Origin: a virus
Reading direction: 5' to 3' (one strand)
Length of the DNA: 28,749 nucleotides
Virus record (IMG/VR): IMGVR_UViG_3300025695_000074
Location: 1-28,749 of that record
Part shown: positions 1-26,505 of the stretch, one piece after another
How positions within the stretch are numbered: position 1 is the first letter of the stretch
How the letters are laid out: the number at the start of each line of letters is the position of its first letter
Position numbers and translations under genes: made by a program
Notes under the pieces: generated by a model
Databases searched by the model: none
Told to the model about the DNA's origin: nothing
Seen by the model: the letters and a program-made list of their open reading frames with translations, nothing else

Positions 1-1274
1 AAGCGGGTGAAGATTTTTGGGCTGCATCTATGGCATCCCTATCAACGGGGGGTAAGATTATCCTAATCTCCACACCTAATGGGTACGACCCTATATACTA
101 TGGTGTATATGACCAAGCAATAAGAGGTATGAATGATTTTCATATAACCGATTTAAGATGGTTTAAAGACCCTCGTTACGCTTCGGACCTAAAATGGTTA
201 AAGGTAGACGATATAATCCATTATATGTTAAATAGGGATCTCTACAATGACGATGAAGTAGTTTTAGAAGCTGGTTGGGAGAATTATACACAATTACTTG
301 AAGATGGATATAAACCATATTCACATTGGTTTGAGAATATGGCCAAGAAGTTCAAGTACGATAAAAGAAAGATCGCACAGGAATTAGAATGTGACTTCCT
401 TGGGTCTGGTGACGGTGTTATCCCTAACGACATACAAGAACGTATACGAAAAAATGAAATAAAGGAACCTATTGAGAAATATATGCAAGGTACTTTTTGG
501 TTATGGAAAGAACCTGTAAAAGACCATAGATATATTATGGGGGTAGACGTGTCTCGAGGAGATAGTGCGGATGCGTCCTCAATATCAGTAATCGATTTCG
601 ATGAACGTGAACAAGTTGCAGAGTATATTGGTAAAATACCTCCCGACGATTTAGCAAGTATCGCATATAAATGGGCCACATTATACAAGGCATTTGTTGT
701 AATTGATATTACCGGTGGTATGGGTATTGCCACATCCAGAAAATTACAGGAGATGAATTATAAAGACCTTTACATTGAGGGAGTTAATTCAATGAACAAA
801 TGGGATTATAATAGGAAAGCACAAGAAAAAATACCCGGACTTAGTTTCAATAATAAGAGGACTCAGATTGTGGCGTCATTTGAAGAACATTTAAGACATG
901 GGTTTGGTGTAAGATCGAGTAGGTTATTAAATGAACTTAATACCTTTGTTTATGTTAACGGTAGACCTGACCACATGAAGGGTGCTCACGATGACGCAAT
1001 TATGGGGTTAGCAATGGCACTATATGTTGGTGACATTTGTTTTAGTCAACTAAATAGAAATGATAGTTCGAACAAGGCAATGTTGGATTCTTGGGTTTTA
1101 TCAGAAAGGACCTATGAGACGAGTAAGTCTTTTTATTCCCACGGAACCGCATTCGACGCAATAGGGTCCATGACAACGGACGGACAACCTTACAATCCAA
1201 GTAGGAATAACCCGACTTTAGAACAATACCAAGAACATTCATGGTTATTCGGTAAAAAAATAAAGGGGTTTTAA
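1..1274 (+). CDS. 17: Terminase large subunit (T4 gp17-like), 5' truncated by window edge
   Basis: This is the motor and nuclease that packages DNA into the prohead. The reading frame is open from base 3, before the first ATG at base 30, and encodes AGEDFWAASMASLSTGGK, so the gene starts upstream of the window and base 30 is not its start. About 423 residues are visible; T4 gp17 has about 610, so the Walker A part is missing. Visible landmarks, numbered from the Met at base 30, are the ATPase coupling motif STPNG (14-18) and an RNase H-like nuclease domain with acidic residues at D173 (GVDVSRGDSAD), D226 (VVIDITGGMG) and D321/D322 (HDDAIMGLA), matching the catalytic triad arrangement of the gp17 family. 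It is followed after 45 nt by the portal gene. In T4 the tail sheath and tube genes lie between these two; here they do not. Confidence 0.93.
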   Translation, partial: AGEDFWAASMASLSTGGKIILISTPNGYDPIYYGVYDQAIRGMNDFHITDLRWFKDPRYASDLKWLKVDDIIHYMLNRDLYNDDEVVLEAGWENYTQLLEDGYKPYSHWFENMAKKFKYDKRKIAQELECDFLGSGDGVIPNDIQERIRKNEIKEPIEKYMQGTFWLWKEPVKDHRYIMGVDVSRGDSADASSISVIDFDEREQVAEYIGKIPPDDLASIAYKWATLYKAFVVIDITGGMGIATSRKLQEMNYKDLYIEGVNSMNKWDYNRKAQEKIPGLSFNNKRTQIVASFEEHLRHGFGVRSSRLLNELNTFVYVNGRPDHMKGAHDDAIMGLAMALYVGDICFSQLNRNDSSNKAMLDSWVLSERTYETSKSFYSHGTAFDAIGSMTTDGQPYNPSRNNPTLEQYQEHSWLFGKKIKGF

Positions 1275-1308
1275 TTGTAAAAAAAATTATGTATATTGTA
1301 ATGATTAA

Positions 1309-1316
1309 TATTTATT
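1309..1316 (+). promoter_or_regulatory. Candidate late promoter motif TATTTATT before portal gene
   Basis: TATTTATT ends 3 nt before the portal ATG. It matches the motif seen before nine other gene starts. If it acts as a -10 element the transcript would be almost leaderless. Evidence is motif recurrence and position only. Confidence 0.45.
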
Positions 1317-1319
1317 AAT

Positions 1320-3167
1320 ATGGCTAAAAAAGAATTAACAGTTTATCAGCAACTGACTAAGGTATTCGGATTTCAATCTGAAAAACCAACACCCCCAAAA
1401 CAATATCGATTTGATAAGGATCAACTATTGAAGACCGATAGTAAGGAGGAGTATGAAAAACAACTATTACAACAACAACAATCTCAATATATTGCAGATA
1501 AGTGGACTAAGTTAGATCAATCACTTTATAATCAATCAGTTTATTATGAACCTAATAGATTGGCTGCTTATTATGATTATGAGTCTATGGAGTTCACACC
1601 TGAAATATCGGCAGCGTTAGACATTTATTCCGAGGAATCAACTACTTTATCTGAGAAAGGACAAATATTAACCATTTATTCAGAATCTAAAAGAGTTAAA
1701 AACATATTAGAGGATTTATTCTATAATGTTTTAGATATAAACACTAACTTACAAATGTGGTGTAGAGGATTGTCAAAATACGGAGATAATTTCGTTTATT
1801 TAAAGATAGATCCAGATAGAGGAGTAATAGGATGTCAACAACTACCTAATATTGAAATAGAGAGACATGAAGGTGCCGCATCTAACGTACACAAGGCAGA
1901 ACCAACAACCAAAGTACCAAGTAGAGAATTGAGGTTCGCTTGGAAAAATAAGGACATGGAGTTCCAAGCATGGGAAGTAGCCCACTTTAGACTTTTAGGT
2001 GACGATAGAAAATTACCATATGGTACTTCTATGTTAGATAAGGTTAGACGTATATGGAAACAACTACTTTTGGCTGAAGACGCAATGTTAATTTATAGAA
2101 CATCTAGAGCACCTGAAAGAAGGGTGTTTAAAGTATTCGTTGGGAATATGGATGATAAAGACATTGAGGCCTATGTACAAAGAGTTGCCAATAAGTTTAA
2201 AAGAGATCAAATAGTTGATCAAAAGAACGGACAGGTTGATATGAGATATAACCAGATGGCTGTTGATCAGGATTACTTTATACCCGTAAGAGACCCTTCA
2301 CAAACAAATCCAATTGAAACATTACCCGGAGCACAGAATTTAGGGGAAATTGCAGATATAGAATACATTCAGAAAAAGATGTTAGCCGCACTTAGAATAC
2401 CTAAAGCTTTCTTAGGGTTTGAGGAAATTGTTGGTGACGGTAAAACATTGGCATTAATGGATATTCGTTTTGCGAGGACTGTTAATAGAATACAGAAATC
2501 ACTTATACAGGAATTAAATAAAATTGCGTTAGTACACCTGTATCTTCTTGGTTTAGAAGATGAGTTAGATAATTTCACAATGACATTAACTAATCCATCG
2601 GCACAATCTGATCTACTTAAGATAGAACAGTGGAAAGAGAAGATAACATTATATAAAGACGCAACTGCAGATCAATCACAAGTAGGTATACAACCCGTAT
2701 CACATACTTGGGCTAAGAAAAATATTCTTGGTATGAGTGATAATGATGTTATACTTGATTTACAACAACAAAGACTCGAAAGAGCTCTTGGTGCTGAGTT
2801 AGGTATTACACAAAACATTATTAAAAGGACCGGAGTATTTGATGAGGTTGATAAAAAATATGGAATCTCTGAAAAAGAAAGACAATCTATGGAGTCCCCA
2901 CCAGCATCGGGGGGTGACGATATGGGTGGTGGAGACTTCGGAGGTGGAGACCTTGGAGGTGGAGACATGGGGTCGGCACCTGAACCACCAATTGGTGGTG
3001 ACGTAGGTGGTGACGAACCATTAAGTGAGAACTCAAAAAAATCTAAAATATTAAGTATGTTAGGTGACGAAAAAGAAGATTTTGATAATCTTTTTGATGT
3101 CGATAAGGCACAACGTAATATTTATGAAATAGAGAATAAAATTAAAGATATTATAAAAGACGAATAA
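1320..3167 (+). CDS. 20: Portal protein (T4 gp20-like)
   Basis: The portal forms the ring at the capsid vertex through which terminase threads DNA and to which the tail later joins. The call rests on position directly after terminase and before the prohead protease, and on sequence blocks typical of T4-type portals: YYDYESMEFTPEISAALDIY near residue 80-100, the clip and stem region, and FIPVRDPSQTNPIETLPGAQ near residue 320-340. At 615 residues it is longer than T4 gp20 (about 524). The extra length is mostly a C-terminal tail with a Gly/Asp-rich tract (roughly residues 526-565, repeats of GGGD) followed by a charged helical end. Its stop TAA shares one base with the next start (TAATG), so translation of the next gene is probably coupled. 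The leader has no Shine-Dalgarno sequence. Confidence 0.92.
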   Translation: MAKKELTVYQQLTKVFGFQSEKPTPPKQYRFDKDQLLKTDSKEEYEKQLLQQQQSQYIADKWTKLDQSLYNQSVYYEPNRLAAYYDYESMEFTPEISAALDIYSEESTTLSEKGQILTIYSESKRVKNILEDLFYNVLDINTNLQMWCRGLSKYGDNFVYLKIDPDRGVIGCQQLPNIEIERHEGAASNVHKAEPTTKVPSRELRFAWKNKDMEFQAWEVAHFRLLGDDRKLPYGTSMLDKVRRIWKQLLLAEDAMLIYRTSRAPERRVFKVFVGNMDDKDIEAYVQRVANKFKRDQIVDQKNGQVDMRYNQMAVDQDYFIPVRDPSQTNPIETLPGAQNLGEIADIEYIQKKMLAALRIPKAFLGFEEIVGDGKTLALMDIRFARTVNRIQKSLIQELNKIALVHLYLLGLEDELDNFTMTLTNPSAQSDLLKIEQWKEKITLYKDATADQSQVGIQPVSHTWAKKNILGMSDNDVILDLQQQRLERALGAELGITQNIIKRTGVFDEVDKKYGISEKERQSMESPPASGGDDMGGGDFGGGDLGGGDMGSAPEPPIGGDVGGDEPLSENSKKSKILSMLGDEKEDFDNLFDVDKAQRNIYEIENKIKDIIKDE

Positions 3168-3898
3168 TGATGACATTTGGACACATTAAAAACAAGGTTT
3201 TAGTTAAATTAACAGAATCTTACGGAACAAAAGAGTTTAAAGGAAATATAAACAAGTATTTTAAGCCAATAATGAATAGTAGTGTTTTGAAGGAAATGTA
3301 TTCATTATATGAAGAAATAGAAAGTAAAACTTTTGACGATAAAGAAACCGCACAGATTTACGTCGAGGAATTGTCCAGAGTTTTAAAGGAAAAACATCAC
3401 GATATTAGTAAGTCGTTATTTGATTTAAACGAATCACTTAAAGATGTTGATAAGACAACTAATCATTTGTATGAGTGGTTAGACCATTTATCAACACCGG
3501 ATAAGTTAGGTAATATATCAAGTAAGGTTGTTGCTAAGAAAAAATTGGTGGAACATTTAGTAACCGATAAAACTCAAGACGAATTAAAAGTGGATAAATC
3601 AGTTAATGAAAATCTTTTAAACACAGTTTTAGTGAATAACTTTAATTCTGATTATGGTAAAGACTTAACAGAAAGTGAAAAGGAGAAATTACATAGTATT
3701 TTATCGTTAGATATTGAAGAACTTAACATTAAGTTTTCAGATTTACAGGAAAGTATTAATAGTACGTTAGATTTACTAACAGAAGAAGACTCTTCATTTA
3801 AATCTAAGGCCGATGAGGTAAGAAATGAGGTAATTAAAATGGATGTAAGTAAATATAACCTATATCGATTAGAAGACCTCTTAGAGGGATTATCGTAA
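3167..3898 (+). CDS. Hypothetical helical protein in the prohead gene cluster
   Basis: This 243-residue protein is not recognised by sequence. It is rich in Lys, Glu, Asp, Leu and Ser with long predicted helical stretches (for example residues 40-110 and 165-243) and has no Cys and no signal peptide. It starts one base inside the portal stop codon and is followed by a hairpin terminator, so it is co-expressed with the portal. In T4 the small prohead core proteins gp67 and gp68 lie between gp20 and gp21, so a core or scaffold-associated role is a reasonable guess from position, but no similarity to them can be shown here. Two adjacent ATG codons (3167 and 3170) could both serve as start. Confidence 0.8.
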   Translation: MMTFGHIKNKVLVKLTESYGTKEFKGNINKYFKPIMNSSVLKEMYSLYEEIESKTFDDKETAQIYVEELSRVLKEKHHDISKSLFDLNESLKDVDKTTNHLYEWLDHLSTPDKLGNISSKVVAKKKLVEHLVTDKTQDELKVDKSVNENLLNTVLVNNFNSDYGKDLTESEKEKLHSILSLDIEELNIKFSDLQESINSTLDLLTEEDSSFKSKADEVRNEVIKMDVSKYNLYRLEDLLEGLS

Positions 3899-3905
3899 AT
3901 TATTT

Positions 3906-3930
3906 AAAGGTGTCTTAGGACACCTTTTTT
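3906..3930 (+). terminator. Rho-independent terminator after portal operon
   Basis: A 9-bp perfect stem, AAAGGTGTC and GACACCTTT with loop TTAG, is followed by a T run. It lies 8 nt after the stop at 3898 and touches the stop codon of the convergent rpsU gene, so it separates the + strand unit from rpsU. On the - strand the stem is followed by TTTAAATAATT, a much poorer T tract. Confidence 0.8.
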
Positions 3931-4120
3931 ATTTGTCTTCATTATCCTTTAACATCTGTATATAGACTGCCTTTTGATGTTGTTTTCTTTTTTTAACAGA
4001 CGACTTTAAAAAAGTTTTATTTTCCTTAAGGTGTTGTAACTGTTTTACATTTCTAACCTTTTTTTTATATTTTTTAAGTGCCTGCTCTATATTACCCTTT
4101 TTAACCTCTATTATTAACAT
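3929..4120 (-). CDS. rpsU: Ribosomal protein bS21, Bacteroidota type, phage-encoded
   Basis: The 63-residue product has the full bS21 pattern: MLII start, basic helix with ALKKYKKK (residues 14-21), then the TFLKSSVKKRKQHQKAVYIQ segment (36-55). Length and N-terminus match Bacteroidota bS21 rather than the longer proteobacterial form. bS21 binds the 30S platform next to the 3' end of 16S rRNA. In Bacteroidota, bS21 with bS18 and bS6 is known to sequester the anti-Shine-Dalgarno tail, with a C-terminal Tyr contacting it; Y53 here sits at the matching place. The gene lies antisense inside the capsid cluster, between the portal operon and the protease gene, and a late-type TATTTATA motif ends 14 nt before its ATG. 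The leader (AAAAATCAGTAAT) has no Shine-Dalgarno sequence. It could replace host bS21 late in infection. Confidence 0.93.
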   Translation of the reverse strand: MLIIEVKKGNIEQALKKYKKKVRNVKQLQHLKENKTFLKSSVKKRKQHQKAVYIQMLKDNEDK

Positions 4121-4134
4121 ATTACTGATTTTTA

Positions 4135-4142
4135 TATAAATA
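4135..4142 (-). promoter_or_regulatory. Candidate late promoter motif TATTTATA before rpsU
   Basis: Read on the - strand the site is TATTTATA, 14 nt before the rpsU ATG, within the 14-20 nt spacing seen at most other sites. On the + strand the same bases read TATAAATA, which is exactly the T4 late promoter consensus and points toward the gene at 4221. Which direction is used cannot be decided from sequence. Confidence 0.5.
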
Positions 4143-4150
4143 CAAACAAT

Positions 4151-4158
4151 TAAATTTG
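4151..4158 (+). promoter_or_regulatory. Possible host-type -7 box TAAATTTG
   Basis: TAAATTTG fits the Bacteroidota -7 consensus TAnnTTTG and lies 62 nt before the ATG at 4221. No TTG is found at the expected -33 position, so support is weak. Confidence 0.25.
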
Positions 4159-4220
4159 TTTTTCAAGATAATTTTGTCTATATTTTAGATAACACCATAA
4201 AATACGATATAATATGAAAA

Positions 4221-4646
4221 ATGAAATTAGGACGTTACATTCCATTAGGAGATTACAAAAACGTTAAAGTAGGTTACGGTACAATTAACCATAAAGAATT
4301 AAAAACAATTTATGTAAATTTTAACTCATGGTTAGAACCCGACCCATACTGCGAAGATTACGACGTAATAGTGAAATCTTCAAGAAATAAAATAAAAAAA
4401 TTAATCTATAATTTAGGTATAGGTCTTTTTAGGAAAGAGTCAATTGTGGATTTAGATGTTAGAACTAAAGGAATAAAAAAAGAGAAAAGATCTTTTATGA
4501 ATTTAGAAATAACATTATATACCGAAAAACACTTCAACATTAAAGATAAATCATTAAAAGATGACATGTATAATTTAGTTACCGAGGTAATTGATACGTG
4601 TTTAAATGACGATTTATTATACAATTTCAACAAAAAGAAAAAATAA
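4221..4646 (+). CDS. Hypothetical protein between rpsU and prohead protease
   Basis: This 141-residue basic protein is not recognised. It begins MKLGRYIPLGDYKNVKVGYG, has a mixed alpha/beta composition with alternating hydrophobic strands (for example residues 92-103, SFMNLEITLYTE), and ends in a Lys-rich tail (FNKKKK). No Cys pairs, signal peptide or membrane segment are seen apart from one Cys near residue 44 and one near 127. The ATG at 4214 is out of frame, so 4221 is the start. It stands alone: divergent from rpsU and separated by a late-type motif from the protease gene. It may be an assembly or regulatory protein, but nothing in the sequence decides that. Confidence 0.75.
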   Translation: MKLGRYIPLGDYKNVKVGYGTINHKELKTIYVNFNSWLEPDPYCEDYDVIVKSSRNKIKKLIYNLGIGLFRKESIVDLDVRTKGIKKEKRSFMNLEITLYTEKHFNIKDKSLKDDMYNLVTEVIDTCLNDDLLYNFNKKKK

Positions 4647-4687: not shown

Positions 4688-5371
4688 ATGAAAGTATTAG
4701 GTCCAAAAGATACGGGGAAAGGAATTCTTATAGAATATGATGCAGGATTTGTATCACCCGAAGAAAATAAAAAAATTATTTCAGAAATGAAGGGTATCGA
4801 CTTCTCAGAAGATATCGTTCTATATGCTGTGCTTCAAAAATTTGATACACCAAATAAAAATGGTAGAGTATATCCTGAAAAACTTTTAAAGAGAGAAAAC
4901 GATAAATACCAAGACATAATTGGTAAGGGTTCAGCACTTAATGAACTTAACCACCCATCATCATCACTTATTGATTTAGATAGAGTTTCTCATGTCATTA
5001 CCGAAACGTGGTGGGATGGTAAGACACTTATGGGTAAAATTAAACTACTTACTTCTCCAGGTTGGAAAAAAATGGGGATTGTGAGTACTAAAGGAGATCA
5101 AGCCGCAATGTTAATAATGAACGGGGTAACTTTAGGTATATCATCTAGAGGTGTTGGTTCACTTAAATCTGAAAAGGGTCAAAACATTGTACAGGAAGAC
5201 TTCGAGTTAGTGTGTTTCGATTTGGTATCGTCACCATCTACACCCGGAGCATATGTTTTCCATGACCCGTCCGATAGAGAAAAATACGAAGAATCAATTG
5301 AAGAACAACCTGTGGTGGACGAGAGAATGTCAAAATTAATGGGTAAAATGAATAGTTTTTTACATAAATAA
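4688..5371 (+). CDS. 21: Prohead maturation protease (T4 gp21-like)
   Basis: This serine protease acts inside the assembled prohead, where it digests the core and trims the capsid protein before DNA packaging. It has 227 residues against about 212 for T4 gp21. The herpes-protease-like fold is suggested by NKNGRVYP (57-63), the catalytic His block ELNHPSSSLIDLDRVSHV (86-103, His89), and the Ser block GVTLGISSRGVGS (146-158, nucleophile Ser152 or Ser153). Its position between the portal region and the core and capsid genes is the T4 order. A late-type motif precedes it, and an A/T-rich 80-nt gap with a second motif separates it from the core gene. The leader has no Shine-Dalgarno sequence. Confidence 0.9.
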   Translation: MKVLGPKDTGKGILIEYDAGFVSPEENKKIISEMKGIDFSEDIVLYAVLQKFDTPNKNGRVYPEKLLKRENDKYQDIIGKGSALNELNHPSSSLIDLDRVSHVITETWWDGKTLMGKIKLLTSPGWKKMGIVSTKGDQAAMLIMNGVTLGISSRGVGSLKSEKGQNIVQEDFELVCFDLVSSPSTPGAYVFHDPSDREKYEESIEEQPVVDERMSKLMGKMNSFLHK

Positions 5372-6695: not shown

Positions 6696-8408
6696 ATGGG
6701 AGCATTATTAGAATCAGGTATGGTTGGTAACATCGGGTTAAAACACCTTAGAGTTATCAAAGAAGATACCATCAAAAAATGGGATGACTTAGGATTCCTA
6801 GAAGGTCTTAACGGACATCAAAAAGATAACATCGCTCAGTTATATGAAAACCAAGCGTCTTATTTAATAAACGAAGCAGCTGTTTCAGATGCATCAGGTT
6901 CTTTCGAAACTGTTGTTTTCCCAATCATTAGAAGAGTATTCTCTAAATTATTGGCAAACGATATCGTTTCTGTACAAGCTATGAACTTACCAATTGGTAA
7001 ATTATTCTACTTTGTACCTAAGATCCAAGATAGAAATAGTAATGATAATTCACATAACACACCTTACGGAATGCCAGGTAACACTGATGCATCTGACAAA
7101 GGATATGGTGGAAGAAATCTTTATGACCGTTTCTACGAAGGTGGAGATGAGGCAAACGAAGGTTTATTCGACTATTCAAAAGGTGAGTATGACGTTATCA
7201 CATTAGCTGATGTTAGTGGAGTAACTTTCGCAAACGGTACAGCTACAACAAGTGGTACTGTAGTAGCTTCAGGTGATACTGTAAGTTCAGTATTATTAGT
7301 AGCTAAAGGTTTCTCTAAAGCAGGACAAGGTAAAATTGTTGGACCTGTAGGTAACGAAATGGATACTGAAGAATTTTTAGCTTCTTTAGAAGTTAAAAGA
7401 GGTGGAGCATCATTACCATTTAACATTGTAACTCAGAAATACGGTAAAGGTATTGTTGAGTACGGATCTAAAGCAACAGGTATTACAGGAAAATTCCAAG
7501 ATATTTGTGACGAAGACGGATCAATTTACTTAAACATAGACATGCAAACTTACGGTTCTGCAGGTTTTGTTGATTTTGAAGCAAGTGCAGATGTAGAATC
7601 TAGTGATTTCACATTAACTTACAGACAATATGCATCTTTAGAATTTGAAGATTCTATCGGTGAGGTTTCTTTCGATTTAGATTCAGTTACTGTTTCTGTT
7701 ACAGAAAGAAAATTAAGAGCATCTTGGTCTCCTGAATTGGCTCAAGACGTTTCTGCTTTCCATAACATCGACGCTGAAGCTGAGTTAACTGCATTGTTAT
7801 CTGAGCAAATTGCTGCTGAGGTTGATAGAGAGATCTTAAGAGACTTAAGAAAAGGAGCAGCTTGGAACATCAAGTGGGACTATAATGAGTGGAAGTACGG
7901 TGGAACTAACGGTGACACTTTACAAGGGTACACTCAAAAGGATTGGAACCAAACGTTAATTACTAAAATTAACCAATTATCGGCTCAAATCCATAAAACT
8001 ACTTTAAGAGGTGGTGCTAACTGGATCGTTGTTTCTTCTGAAGTTTCAGCTGTATTCGATGACTTAGAGTACTTCCACGTATCTAACGCAGGTGCTGAAC
8101 AAGACCAATACAACATGGGTATTGAGAAAGTTGGTACATTAGCTGGTAGATATCAAGTATTTAGAGACCCTTACTTCCCTGCAGGTAAGATCTTAGTAGG
8201 ACATAAAGGAAAATCGTTATTAGATGCTGGTTATATCTACGCACCTTACGTACCTTTACAACTTACACCTACAATGTATAACCCATTCAATTTTACCCCA
8301 ATAAAGGGTATTATGACGAGATACGCTAAGAAAATGGTTAATAACCGTTACTTCGGTGTTATCAACGTAAGTGGATTACAAACATTCAGTTTAGACACTT
8401 TAAGATAA
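6696..8408 (+). CDS. 23: Major capsid protein (T4 gp23-like)
   Basis: This is the HK97-fold shell protein, 570 residues against 521 in T4. The N-terminal 60 residues form a helical delta-like region ending YENQASYLINEAAVSD. I58-N59-E60 followed by A61 fits the gp21 cleavage rule (L/I-x-E) and lies where T4 gp23 is cut after residue 65. The conserved block VVFPIIRRVFSKLLANDIVS with VQAMNLPIGKLFYF (about 73-107) aligns with the T4 sequence MVRRAIPNLIAFDICGVQPM and neighbours. The C-terminal part includes PYVPLQLTPTMYNPFNF with the following RYAKKMVNNRYFGVI, typical of gp23. Residues about 165-260 are Ala/Gly/Ser/Thr/Val-rich and may be a surface insertion. The leader (AACAATATTTTAAA) lacks a Shine-Dalgarno sequence although this should be the most highly expressed gene. 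A strong terminator follows. Confidence 0.95.
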   Translation: MGALLESGMVGNIGLKHLRVIKEDTIKKWDDLGFLEGLNGHQKDNIAQLYENQASYLINEAAVSDASGSFETVVFPIIRRVFSKLLANDIVSVQAMNLPIGKLFYFVPKIQDRNSNDNSHNTPYGMPGNTDASDKGYGGRNLYDRFYEGGDEANEGLFDYSKGEYDVITLADVSGVTFANGTATTSGTVVASGDTVSSVLLVAKGFSKAGQGKIVGPVGNEMDTEEFLASLEVKRGGASLPFNIVTQKYGKGIVEYGSKATGITGKFQDICDEDGSIYLNIDMQTYGSAGFVDFEASADVESSDFTLTYRQYASLEFEDSIGEVSFDLDSVTVSVTERKLRASWSPELAQDVSAFHNIDAEAELTALLSEQIAAEVDREILRDLRKGAAWNIKWDYNEWKYGGTNGDTLQGYTQKDWNQTLITKINQLSAQIHKTTLRGGANWIVVSSEVSAVFDDLEYFHVSNAGAEQDQYNMGIEKVGTLAGRYQVFRDPYFPAGKILVGHKGKSLLDAGYIYAPYVPLQLTPTMYNPFNFTPIKGIMTRYAKKMVNNRYFGVINVSGLQTFSLDTLR

Positions 8409-8433: not shown

Positions 8434-8463
8434 AAACCCTCACTTTATTAGTGGGGGTTTTTT
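8434..8463 (+). terminator. Rho-independent terminator after the capsid gene
   Basis: An 11-bp stem (AAACCCTCACT with AGTGGGGGTTT, one G-T wobble), loop TTATT and a TTTTTT tract start 26 nt after the capsid stop. It ends the capsid operon. Confidence 0.88.
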
Positions 8464-8505
8464 AATGGAAAAAATTTAACAAAAAAATCATCTATAGTGG
8501 AAAAT

Positions 8506-8521
8506 ATTTGTTTATATTTGT
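8506..8521 (+). promoter_or_regulatory. Host-type promoter element with TATATTTG
   Basis: ATTTGTTTATATTTGT contains the Bacteroidota -7 type box TATATTTG (8513-8520). The identical 16-mer occurs on the - strand at 24196-24211, before the metabolic operon. No clear -33 TTG is seen here. It lies 26 nt before the 57-residue gene at 8547. Confidence 0.5.
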
Positions 8522-8546
8522 AATTATGAAATTATAATGGAAAAAA

Positions 8547-8720
8547 ATGTCAAAAACAATAACTAAAGAGGGGTCATTGTTCCTTGTTGGGGTGTCTTTA
8601 GACGAAAAAGAATTATTACATGAAATTGGTAGGATGGTATTAAATGGTGACGCCACAAACCTTAATCGTTTTTCAGATGATAAAGTTTGGTATCAGTGTA
8701 AAAGAAAACCATTAGTATAG
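8547..8720 (+). CDS. Small hypothetical protein, 57 residues
   Basis: A short reading frame encodes MSKTITKEGSLFLVGVSLDE at the N-terminus and ends CKRKPLV. The ATG at 8537 is out of frame and stops after nine codons, so 8547 is the likely start. It lies behind a host-type promoter and its stop TAG is one base from the deaminase ATG, which argues for a real, translationally coupled gene. Composition is normal for a small soluble alpha/beta protein, with a helix likely around DEKELLHEIGRMVLNG. No family is recognised. A link with the deaminase is suggested only by the spacing. Confidence 0.65.
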   Translation: MSKTITKEGSLFLVGVSLDEKELLHEIGRMVLNGDATNLNRFSDDKVWYQCKRKPLV

Positions 8721-10944: not shown

Positions 10945-11430
10945 TTAATAAATATTTGGGTTTATAAGTTTTATAAAGTTTTTCCATGTATCGTAATCAT
11001 TCTCGTTTCTCCCGATATTAGCACTATAAGAACTTAAAACAATATTTCCTTTTATATATCCAAGTTTGTTATTAATCCTATCTAACGAAGGTTGTTGAGG
11101 GTGTTTTTTTTCTGTGGATGGAATTAGGTCAACACCGAACCAATAACATTTACCACCCTGTTTATCAAAAAGATAATCAATATATTCACAATCAATGTCA
11201 ATTTCACCTTTTCTATGTTTACAATCATTTATTAAGGTGTTTTGCCATAATCTAACTCTACGTTCTTTTTGTTTTTTAGATTCTAATTCCCTATATTTAA
11301 GGTCTTTTCTTTTTTTACGTTTATATTCTCTTGTAATCTCTAAATGACACATTTTACATGTGGCTGATCTATTAGGTCTGTAAAAATCCGAATTATTTTT
11401 TGTGTCACCACATTTATTACATTTTTTCAT
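10945..11430 (-). CDS. HNH endonuclease (free-standing)
   Basis: The 161-residue product has an N-terminal zinc-ribbon-like part with C4-x2-C7 and C25-x2-C28 (KCNKCGDTKNNSDFYRP, TCKMCH), a basic linker, and a C-terminal HNH nuclease with GGKCYWFGVDLI, HPQQPSLDRINNKLGYIKGN and IVLSSYSANIGRNEN. This is the common phage type that acts as a homing endonuclease, cutting a related genome and spreading by repair. It sits alone between two probable virion genes with 57 nt before it and its stop overlapping the promoter motif of the next gene, as expected for an insertion between cassettes. It has its own upstream late-type motif. Catalysis is not certain from sequence alone, but all signature blocks are present. 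Confidence 0.88.
   Translation of the reverse strand: MKKCNKCGDTKNNSDFYRPNRSATCKMCHLEITREYKRKKRKDLKYRELESKKQKERRVRLWQNTLINDCKHRKGEIDIDCEYIDYLFDKQGGKCYWFGVDLIPSTEKKHPQQPSLDRINNKLGYIKGNIVLSSYSANIGRNENDYDTWKNFIKLINPNIY
10947..10954 (-). promoter_or_regulatory. Candidate late promoter motif TATTTATT
   Basis: On the - strand the context is AAATATTTATTAATAATAAA; it ends 17 nt before the ATG at 10929 and touches the stop codon of the HNH gene. Confidence 0.45.
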
Positions 11431-17340: not shown

Positions 17341-18042
17341 CTAATAATTTATAAAATCCATTTTAAGGATCTCATATAATTTTTTATACTTTTTCATAGA
17401 CACTCTTATCTCTTTAGTTGTAAGAGACGTCATTTCTCTTAATGATAGTAAAATAAGGTTTTTATTAAATTTATTACCATCACCTTCTTGAAAAATCTTA
17501 TCAAAATTACTAAATATTTCAATTAAGGCATACCCCAATTTTAATTCATTATCGTTAAGGTCTTCTTCATCTACAAATTTCTCTAATTCGGTTATTAATT
17601 TCGTAATAACATCAGTGTAATCTACAGTATCCTCATCGATAATATAAGTAAGATCCGCCCTATCTTCAATCCTTGACGAAATATCTTCATAGGAAACGGA
17701 TCTATTATTTTCTTTTGCATCTTTTTGTATAGTACCCATTAGGTAGTTTTTACAAATAGTTCCAAAATAAGAATATGCCTTATAATTTTTAGTGGTGTCG
17801 AACTTATTTATTTTTGTCATTAAGAAGGACATTGTGTCCGTATGAATTTCTTCAAACTCATAATCTTTCCTGTAAAGTTTATAACGGCGAATTATACTTT
17901 CTACCATTATAATGAGAGGTTCTCTTAAATATTCATTGAATATCTTGTTCTTTTCGTCTTCGTTTTCTGATTCTAAGTATCGTACTACCGCTTGTTCTTG
18001 ATCCTCCCCAAAGTATATTTTTTGGGTACGTTTTCTTGGCAT
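17341..18042 (-). CDS. 55: RNA polymerase sigma factor, T4 gp55-like late sigma
   Basis: The 233-residue product has a sigma region 2-like core: EYLREPLIIMVESIIRRYKL (37-56), then HTDTMSFLMTKINKFDTTKN and YKAYSYFGTICKNYLMGTIQ (67-106), followed by KKDAKENNR-type basic residues. The FDxTK...AYxYF...C.N...G.IQK layout parallels T4 gp55 ([20 protein letters not shown], then CFNAFVQRIKKERKE). It should guide host RNA polymerase to late promoters. The C-terminal part (LSLREMTSLTTKEIRVSMKK, about 192-211) may be a short helix-turn-helix, and the extreme end MDFINY resembles the LDFLY-type clamp-binding tail of gp55. It is the last gene of the metabolic operon, overlapping the preceding glycosyltransferase stop by one base, and is directly followed by a late-type motif. 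Confidence 0.82.
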   Translation of the reverse strand: MPRKRTQKIYFGEDQEQAVVRYLESENEDEKNKIFNEYLREPLIIMVESIIRRYKLYRKDYEFEEIHTDTMSFLMTKINKFDTTKNYKAYSYFGTICKNYLMGTIQKDAKENNRSVSYEDISSRIEDRADLTYIIDEDTVDYTDVITKLITELEKFVDEEDLNDNELKLGYALIEIFSNFDKIFQEGDGNKFNKNLILLSLREMTSLTTKEIRVSMKKYKKLYEILKMDFINY

Positions 18043-24853: not shown

Positions 24854-25564
24854 TTAATAATAAAGTAGTTCCTTTATTCTCTTTATATTTTCATTAAGAT
24901 TATCGTAGTTATCATCTTTGTTTTCTTCCTCACCGTCTTCATTTTCATCATCGTCCTCACCTTCTATATCTTGGTTATCTACTTTGGGTGGGTCAATACT
25001 TGGTTTATTAATAGGATTAGGTTCTGGTAAATTTTCAATATCTCCGTCAACATCATCGGTGTCGGGAATATTATCAGGTGTATTATCAATAGGTGGTGTA
25101 TCGTCTACAGGTGGTGTTTCAGGCTCGGGTACTTCCACGTCTCTCTCAGTACTCCCAACATCTGACCAATCAGAGGTAACGTATGTTGTTAAAAAAGAAC
25201 TATCATCGCCTTCTTTATAACCTGGTCTTTTTTGGTCAAAGGTTTCATCTTGAAATATGTTTAATTGATTCATTCTGTTTAATAAGAAAGTTCTCCAATT
25301 ACCCTTTTCAAACCCCGTCTTAGTTCTTGATGGTGGTTCTACCCATGCCCTTACTGCCATGTTACCCTTTTTTGTAACACCCATGGCTACCATTTCTGCT
25401 TTAACTCGTTGTCCCGCCTGTACACTATCAATAGGTCCATTATAAAAGAATGTTACAGGTTTTCTTTTTTTAATTGCATCTGCAACAACTTTAGGTGGGT
25501 TTTGTATTCTCGGTTCAGCTTGTTCACCAATTAAAAAACGATATATGTGTTTAAATAATTTCAT
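24854..25564 (-). CDS. WYL-like domain protein with acidic Pro-rich tail
   Basis: Of 236 residues, about 27-112 look like a WYL-type SH3-like barrel: ADAIKKRKPVTFFYNGPIDS, then GQRVKAEMVAMGVTKKGNMA and VRAWVEPPSRTKTGFEKGNW with RTFLLNRMNQLNIF, i.e. A-I-x-x-(K/R)-x-x-x-x-F-x-Y, a basic/Glu strand, L/V-R-A-W, and W-x-x-F-x-L-x-R-I/M. WYL domains of bacterial regulators bind nucleic acids or nucleotides. There is no N-terminal HTH, so a DNA-binding regulator of the usual kind is unlikely. Residues about 140-215 are Pro/Asp/Glu-rich (PEPETPPVDDTPPIDNTPDN), an unstructured tail, then a short C-terminal helix (ENIKRIKELLYY). Its ATG overlaps the repeat-protein stop by one base. Confidence 0.68.
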   Translation of the reverse strand: MKLFKHIYRFLIGEQAEPRIQNPPKVVADAIKKRKPVTFFYNGPIDSVQAGQRVKAEMVAMGVTKKGNMAVRAWVEPPSRTKTGFEKGNWRTFLLNRMNQLNIFQDETFDQKRPGYKEGDDSSFLTTYVTSDWSDVGSTERDVEVPEPETPPVDDTPPIDNTPDNIPDTDDVDGDIENLPEPNPINKPSIDPPKVDNQDIEGEDDDENEDGEEENKDDNYDNLNENIKRIKELLYY

Positions 25565-26505
25565 TAAAAATCCGGATATTGTTGGTTTTCACCATAAAAA
25601 TTTCTATTAACACTATCTACTCTAGTGTTTATGTCTGTTAACGACCCAACAGAGTTATTATTCTGTCCTTTACCTAACTCATCTCCATCGGAAATTGCAT
25701 TAGGGTGGTTTGAGTTGTACCCATTTGATTCATTATAGGTGTTTCTGTTAACGTTATCGACTCTATTTTGTATATCTACTGAAGATCCGATATTACCATC
25801 GTTCTCTCCTTTACCGTATATGTCACCATCGGACAGGGCATTTTCGTGAGTAACACCATATTCGTTTGACTCGTTGTATTTATTACTTGCAAGGACTGAT
25901 ATTCTCGTATTTATATCTGTTAAAGAACCGATATTACCGTCGTTCTCACCCTTACCCTTTTCATCTCCGTCGGATAACGAATTTGGGTGGGTTAATCCAT
26001 ACCCATTAGAGGTATTATAGGTATTCCTACCTGTATTATCAATTCTCGTAATGTTATCCGTTAAACCACCGATTTTACCGTTGTTTTCTCCTTTACCTAA
26101 CTCATCTCCATCGGAAATTGCATTAGGGTGGTTAGAACCATATTCTTTTGATTCGTTGTATGAATTTCTTTTAAGGTGTTCTTGTCTTTGATTTATATCA
26201 GTAGACGTCCCTATTTTACCATTATTTTCCCCACGACCATAATCATCACCATCAGATATGGCGTTAGGATTCTCAATACCGTAACCATTAGTTGGTCCAT
26301 ATTTATTTTTACCAATAGATTCAGTTCTAACGTTAATGTCTGTTAACGACCCAATCTTACCATCGTTCTCTCCTTTACCCTTTTCATCACCACTAGAGAT
26401 TGCATTAAGGTGGTTAGAATCATACGACTTATCGGTTTGGTAATTATTTCTACTTAATGATTCTGTTCTATATTTTTCTGATATTGTTTCAATTCTTGTT
26501 GCCAT
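25564..26505 (-). CDS. Repeat protein with six 47-residue tandem units
   Basis: The 313-residue product consists almost wholly of six 47-residue repeats (Tyr at 22, 69, 116, 163, 210, 257 and 304 marks each boundary), plus a half unit at the N-terminus. The consensus is roughly N-x-Y-N-E-S-N-G-Y-G then HPNAISDGDELGKGENDG and IGSLTDINTRVDSVNR. Gly, Asn, Asp and Ser dominate and Cys is absent. The conserved DGDELGKGEND loop could bind calcium, but no EF-hand is complete. Regular repeats of this kind suit an extended or solenoid virion part such as a fibre or head decoration. It lies between a 162-residue protein and the WYL-like protein, overlapping both by one base. No family is recognised. 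Confidence 0.82.
   Translation of the reverse strand: MATRIETISEKYRTESLSRNNYQTDKSYDSNHLNAISSGDEKGKGENDGKIGSLTDINVRTESIGKNKYGPTNGYGIENPNAISDGDDYGRGENNGKIGTSTDINQRQEHLKRNSYNESKEYGSNHPNAISDGDELGKGENNGKIGGLTDNITRIDNTGRNTYNTSNGYGLTHPNSLSDGDEKGKGENDGNIGSLTDINTRISVLASNKYNESNEYGVTHENALSDGDIYGKGENDGNIGSSVDIQNRVDNVNRNTYNESNGYNSNHPNAISDGDELGKGQNNNSVGSLTDINTRVDSVNRNFYGENQQYPDF
25597..26442 (-). repeat. Six tandem 141-bp coding repeats
   Basis: The 141-bp period is exact (no indels) over six units, encoding the 47-residue repeats. Units three apart share a stretch of about 45 identical bases ending at 25710 and at 26133 (distance 423 = 3 x 141), which suggests recent exchange between units. Confidence 0.9.

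Follow-up and report, generated by a model that had tools for sequence, protein, structure and literature searches.

Among ribosomal proteins, bS21 is by far the commonest in phages. The locus described here raises the question of why a virus with T4-like head genes keeps a bS21 gene reversed among them, and how expression of that gene relates to that of the host copy, rpsU. The window, by which we mean the whole stretch of DNA analyzed (28,749 nucleotides, IMG/VR record IMGVR_UViG_3300025695_000074), is a fragment. This virus contig of 28.7 kb encodes a T4-like portal, a prohead protease, a Gp23 capsid protein and a terminase, as well as PhoH, dUTPase and dCMP deaminase. The genes of interest follow the order terL, portal, g243, reverse bS21, CN, protease, MCP, and the features used below are these:

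30..1274, plus strand: terminase large subunit, C-terminal part (PHROG 2, E 2.3e-19)
1320..3167, plus strand: T4-like portal protein (PF07230, E 7e-77); TATTTATT ends 3 nt before the ATG
3167..3898, plus strand: g243, a conserved head-region protein convergent with bS21 (context in related loci)
3906..3927, plus strand: intrinsic terminator after g243, just past the bS21 3' end (9-bp stem, U tail; fold -12.9 kcal/mol, z -4.1)
3929..4120, minus strand: bS21 gene, ATG start, 63 aa (PF01165 match and 7jil_z relative)
4121..4134, minus strand: stretch between the element and the ATG, without Shine-Dalgarno sequence (duplex with ACCUCCUUUCU +0.9 kcal/mol)
4135..4142, minus strand (read 4142-4135): TATTTATA, candidate phage late-promoter element, ending 14 nt before the bS21 ATG
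4221..4646, plus strand: divergent neighbor, the bS21_CN of Chen et al. (their fam498) by position and orientation (locus comparison)
4688..5371, plus strand: prohead protease (PF03420, E 3.2e-24); TATTTATA 19 nt before the ATG
6696..8408, plus strand: major capsid protein Gp23 (PF07068, E 1.1e-74); leader A-rich, without TATTTATA and without Shine-Dalgarno sequence
17341..18042, minus strand: gp55-like candidate for a late sigma factor (weak match, E 2.7e-4, to PHROG 234, late sigma transcription factor)

The 63-residue product is a full-length bS21, as the initial annotation of this DNA had proposed: the profile search against PF01165 (Ribosomal_S21) gives 38-39 bits with a cut-off of 27, and the best solved relative is 7jil_z, the bS21 of F. 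johnsoniae (E 1.6e-11, 47 bits). Its predicted structure consists of two helices (pLDDT 86), and every Foldseek match of the model is ribosomal, several of them bacterial, none being significant. Alignment with the bS21 of 7JIL also confirms that Tyr53 corresponds to the residue occluding the 16S rRNA tail there. It aligns with Tyr54 of F. johnsoniae bS21, the offset being a one-residue gap near the N-terminus; Tyr54 stacks on A1534 of the 16S tail (PMC9976891; structure 7JIL). The equivalent position holds Tyr in 80/80 Flavobacteriaceae-like host copies compared, and is aromatic in 91 of the 92 distinct phage proteins (89 Y, 1 F, 1 H), the remaining one having K. The N-terminal half of the phage proteins differs from the host copies: F23 is replaced by V in 85/92, G27 by K in 88/92 and T28 by Q in 70/92, while host R30 is mostly Q, N or S. 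Pairwise dN/dS between related phage bS21 genes has a median of 0.13 and exceeds 1 in 0/291 pairs, and the phage protein is therefore maintained, with purifying selection in the relatives.

Viral contigs were scanned three times, using bS21, the divergent gene and the portal, and more than 170 related loci were obtained, with some contigs recurring. Locus counts refer to related sequences with duplicates and similar leaders removed, and are not weighted by tree. Where both g243 and CN are present, bS21 lies reversed between them in 136/138 loci. Two relatives (L160, 4915-5001, and L224, 3354-3451) have CN and a gap without bS21, so the link between CN and bS21 is not strict. Upstream of CN in the window (4147-4220) there is a separate conserved block, TATATTTTAG..AACACCATAA, which differs from the motif before bS21 and may represent another promoter class. 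Five relatives (L002, L003, L004, L006, L028) carry a second phage bS21 group, 55-60% identical, located directly after another reading frame, without CN context and without a Shine-Dalgarno sequence. Elsewhere in the window, TATA(A/G)TGGAAAA-ATTT repeats at 8460-8558 precede a small ORF. They are similar to a stretch that lies before a Fic-like gene in one Flavobacteriaceae genome (L348; 80% over 99 nt), and weaker matches occur in other genomes. Positions 25564-26505 encode a protein with about six repeats of roughly 45-50 residues each (NAISDGDE.GKGENDGKIGSLTDI), and 10945-11430 a protein that has paired cysteines close to its N-terminus and, in its C-terminal part, a likeness by eye to HNH endonucleases.

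The octamer before bS21, TATTTATA, reads TATAAATA on the plus strand, which is the T4 late box. Since the two are reverse complements, the orientation of the element was tested. The window contains 11 copies of TATTTATA, six of them in sense no more than 40 nt upstream of a gene and five elsewhere; such upstream stretches account for 2.5% of the positions on the strands (binomial p 1e-7). When the upstream windows are shuffled with dinucleotides preserved, the mean is 0.7 and the maximum 4 copies, compared with the six observed, and TATAAATA occupies such a position in sense only once, so the sense reading is the correct one. A matrix trained on the protease, portal and terL upstream regions of relatives, with bS21 left out, gives the window bS21 site 11.2 bits when read in sense but 0.3 bits in antisense, which bears out the earlier description of a sense-oriented promoter-like motif. 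Over 32 bS21 groups, the 5% shuffle level is exceeded by 12 in sense and 2 in antisense. TATTTAT lies in sense upstream of the protease in 20/20 groups and also upstream of portal and terL in relatives; TATTTAT[AT] is present in 82 of 159 bS21 leaders of relatives, and about half have only a degenerate form or none. In the matrix search of relatives, the motif was found in sense at 0/36 CN leaders and 0/14 MCP leaders. The bS21 gene thus shares sense TATTTATA with structural genes, as a member of a putative late-promoter regulon. It is improbable that this AT-rich octamer arose by chance, or that as TATAAATA it belongs to the divergent gene: the region is indeed very AT-rich, the plus-strand reading coincides with the T4 late box, and the overall octamer count is not significantly high (11 versus 7.1 expected), but against these readings stand the sense excess at bS21, the clustering of window copies upstream of genes in sense and the lack of sense enrichment at CN. 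A T4 late box for the gene at 4221-4646 was rejected on the last of these grounds.

The distance from motif to ATG is fixed. In relatives it is 3-6 nt for terL (66 loci) and 3-4 nt for portal (116/137), at most proteases 13-20 nt, and at the window bS21 14 nt. In the window (1306-1319) and in relatives such as L142, L165 and L204, TATTTATA/T ends 3-6 nt before the terL or portal ATG, as it does in most relatives; at terL of relatives the motif often directly follows a terminator hairpin. Such close spacing suggests leaderless or nearly leaderless late mRNAs for terL and portal. If transcription starts are placed as for the Bacteroidota -7 element, the mRNAs of portal and terL would begin at the AUG or right next to it, and the bS21 leader would be about 11 nt long; T4 geometry would make it still shorter.

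The bS21 leader was described in the initial annotation as lacking a Shine-Dalgarno sequence, and the duplex energies agree. For each start, 22 upstream bases, with the last three left out, were paired with the 16S tail ACCUCCUUUCU. The window leader gives +0.9 kcal/mol, and 71/71 distinct phage bS21 leaders are at -3.7 kcal/mol or weaker (0/71 below -4), whereas 66/66 distinct Flavobacteriaceae-like rpsU leaders lie between -16.0 and -17.7 kcal/mol. This Flavobacterium-like host set was selected by similarity to F. johnsoniae, and therefore a second, class-wide sample of Bacteroidia rpsU was taken: 13/90 leaders are stronger than -13 kcal/mol and 60/90 weaker than -4. These counts agree with McNutt et al., who report a Shine-Dalgarno sequence in ~80% of Flavobacteriales and none of Bacteroidales (PMC9976891). 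An extended Shine-Dalgarno sequence, defined as stronger than -13 kcal/mol, is absent from the window bS21 and from all 71 phage leaders. An alternative, Chryseobacterium-like anti-Shine-Dalgarno sequence was rejected for the phage leaders, as its best pairing over all of them is no stronger than -4.9. Other phage genes, essentially all, likewise lack a Shine-Dalgarno sequence; the few with an apparently strong one (below -8) were on reading mostly terminator stems ahead of mis-called starts, and one L202 start remained. The state without Shine-Dalgarno sequences is the default for nearly all genes, phage and host, and the phage leader is an exception to the host rule only in hosts to which that rule applies.

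In hosts that follow it, rpsU is autoregulated by bS21-less ribosomes through its extended Shine-Dalgarno sequence, as the initial annotation had stated (McNutt et al. 2023, PMC9976891). Nearly all Flavobacteriales mRNAs except rpsU lack Shine-Dalgarno sequences, and ribosomes without bS21 or its C-terminus initiate poorly on such mRNAs (PMC9976891). The further claim that the phage copy escapes this feedback holds relative to Flavobacteriaceae-like rpsU, but not for the class as a whole, in which only the minority of sampled leaders noted above are strong and Bacteroidales have none; escape applies only if the host order has a strong rpsU Shine-Dalgarno sequence. The closest copies to the window bS21 come from Flavobacteriaceae, but the identity is low (about 55%), and for many other phage bS21 proteins the most similar copy has no Shine-Dalgarno sequence. 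A search of 397 Flavobacteriaceae genomes for CRISPR spacers and shared DNA turned up no spacer that convinced; what matched was rpsU itself, a repeat region and short stretches rich in A and T. The portal search of the same genomes returned a single distant match (29% identity). Among cultured phages there was no match, and only four uncultured records were found, at 43-52%.

As to timing, bS21 is highly transcribed along with MCP in active sister phages, a late co-expression seen by metatranscriptomics, and the transcript level of CN is similar to that of bS21 (Chen et al. 2022, PMC9723584). The candidate sigma factor of the window has no match in Pfam; its weak similarity to PHROG 234 agrees with a late sigma factor in this phage.

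Starting from what is observed, namely the gene, the residue, the leader, the motif, the context and the purifying selection in relatives, we propose a mechanism that we hold to be about evenly balanced between true and false: that a late-promoted phage bS21 without a Shine-Dalgarno sequence, made with the head and packaging proteins, enters the 30S subunit and progressively replaces host bS21. A T4-like myovirus of Bacteroidota would make its own bS21 in this way, its late sigma factor (the candidate at 17341-18042) presumably directing RNA polymerase to TATTTATA. The resulting mRNA would have a short leader, probably of about ten bases, without a Shine-Dalgarno sequence, and ordinary bS21-replete ribosomes would translate it without the brake of Flavobacteriales rpsU. 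With the tail-occluding aromatic of Bacteroidota retained, the protein would enter 30S subunits that lack bS21 or are exchanging it, and the 16S tail would stay hidden. Where the host belongs to Flavobacteriales, the ribosomes without bS21, which stimulate synthesis of the host's own bS21, would thereby disappear, and phage bS21 would progressively take the place of the host protein. If phage mRNAs are preferred at all, the cause would have to lie in the altered N-terminal half (F23, G27, T28 and R30 mostly to V, K, Q and Q/N/S) and cannot be occlusion. As far as can be judged from sequence, the parts fit a late-expressed bS21 that is free of the host brake. Against the mechanism count the weak sigma match, the degenerate or missing motif at about half of the bS21 genes of relatives, the lack of the motif at CN with its transcript level close to that of bS21, the many Bacteroidia rpsU leaders that have no Shine-Dalgarno sequence, and the fact that lacking one is the default state.

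This mechanism differs from the one in the initial annotation, where the phage protein was thought to keep ribosomes in a state favoring leaders without Shine-Dalgarno sequences, that of the capsid gene included. That idea is not supported in this form, as replete ribosomes are the default in Flavobacteriales, and occlusion alone cannot favor phage over host mRNAs because Shine-Dalgarno sequences are missing from almost all host mRNAs as well. The capsid leader does lack one, as stated, but it is also without the late motif itself. The sole host mRNA that would be specifically repressed by occlusion is that of rpsU, which suggests replacement of host bS21 rather than a general preference among mRNAs.

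Other roles for the protein compete with this mechanism. Phage bS21 may be a stand-in that only keeps ribosomes replete after host shut-off, without selective replacement or mRNA preference. This is unlikely but well within reason: the occluding residue is conserved under purifying selection, and essentially all phage mRNAs belong to the class without Shine-Dalgarno sequences, which is poorly initiated without bS21 or its C-terminus (PMC9976891). Simple supply would not need an N-terminal half that consistently departs from all host copies compared, as in F23V and G27K. The same divergence, concentrated in that half in the window and related proteins, together with the co-expression with head genes in sister phages, is what speaks for selective translation, the hypothesis of Chen et al. 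that the altered N-terminal helix shifts mRNA choice to phage leaders (PMC9723584). We find this doubtful, given that the only features found to set phage leaders apart from host ones are that they are short and AT-rich and that terL and portal mRNAs are apparently leaderless. Very improbable, in our estimate, is a role outside ongoing translation, in which bS21 is packaged in the virion or acts elsewhere and owes its head-region position to that. The tight linkage to head genes would suit such a role, and virion packaging is named as possible by Chen et al. (PMC9723584), but the residue that occludes the tail, and the conservation of positions facing the ribosome, argue for the ribosome as the site of action.

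Replacement of host bS21 may extend, in Flavobacteriales, to a one-way takeover switch, which we put forward tentatively and hold to be unlikely. Phage bS21 would fill the ribosomes and close the bS21-less pool, so that the host would make less bS21 but production of the phage protein would go on; combined with terL and portal mRNAs that have no leader or almost none, this would amount to a specialized late translation state. With an autoregulatory signal in the host copy and none in the phage copy, the general idea becomes testable in the form of whether phage bS21 silences host rpsU. The motif provides a first promoter hypothesis for a common, largely uncultured group of phages.

The closest known systems are the bS21-encoding Bacteroidetes myoviruses of Chen et al. 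2022, clades a-e (PMC9723584), a family of phages from lakes and the sea, which have the same gene order, with reversed bS21 among head genes and an opposite-strand bS21_CN. The window likewise has reverse bS21 among terL, portal, protease and MCP, with CN on the opposite strand. Those phages also share the aromatic residue at position 54, the N-terminal divergence and the predicted hosts, and the window bS21 is a further case of a known kind, because its locus, CN, aromatic 54, N-terminal divergence and late co-expression have all been described there. A word search of the main text finds no mention of promoters, leaders or a missing Shine-Dalgarno sequence in the phage gene (PMC9723584). The rpsU of Flavobacteriales encodes the same Tyr54-type bS21 (PMC9976891, 7JIL), but differs in the N-terminal half and in its leader, the extended Shine-Dalgarno sequence being present in 66/66 host and 0/71 phage leaders. 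As far as found in the open-access literature, what is added here is this contrast with Flavobacteriaceae rpsU and the TATTTATA common to bS21 and the packaging and head genes. The T4 late promoter, TATAAATA used with gp55, is likewise an AT-only octamer before head genes, and the window phage is T4-like with a weak gp55-like sigma factor; here, however, the sense sequence is TATTTATA and not TATAAATA, and the spacing to the terL and portal start codons is very short. Bacteria of the phylum to which Pelagibacter belongs have a free 16S tail and make use of Shine-Dalgarno sequences. The Pelagibacter phage HTVC008M likewise encodes a bS21, but for a host of that other phylum, and its protein has been shown to join the 70S ribosomes of E. 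coli (Mizuno et al. 2019, PMC6375957).
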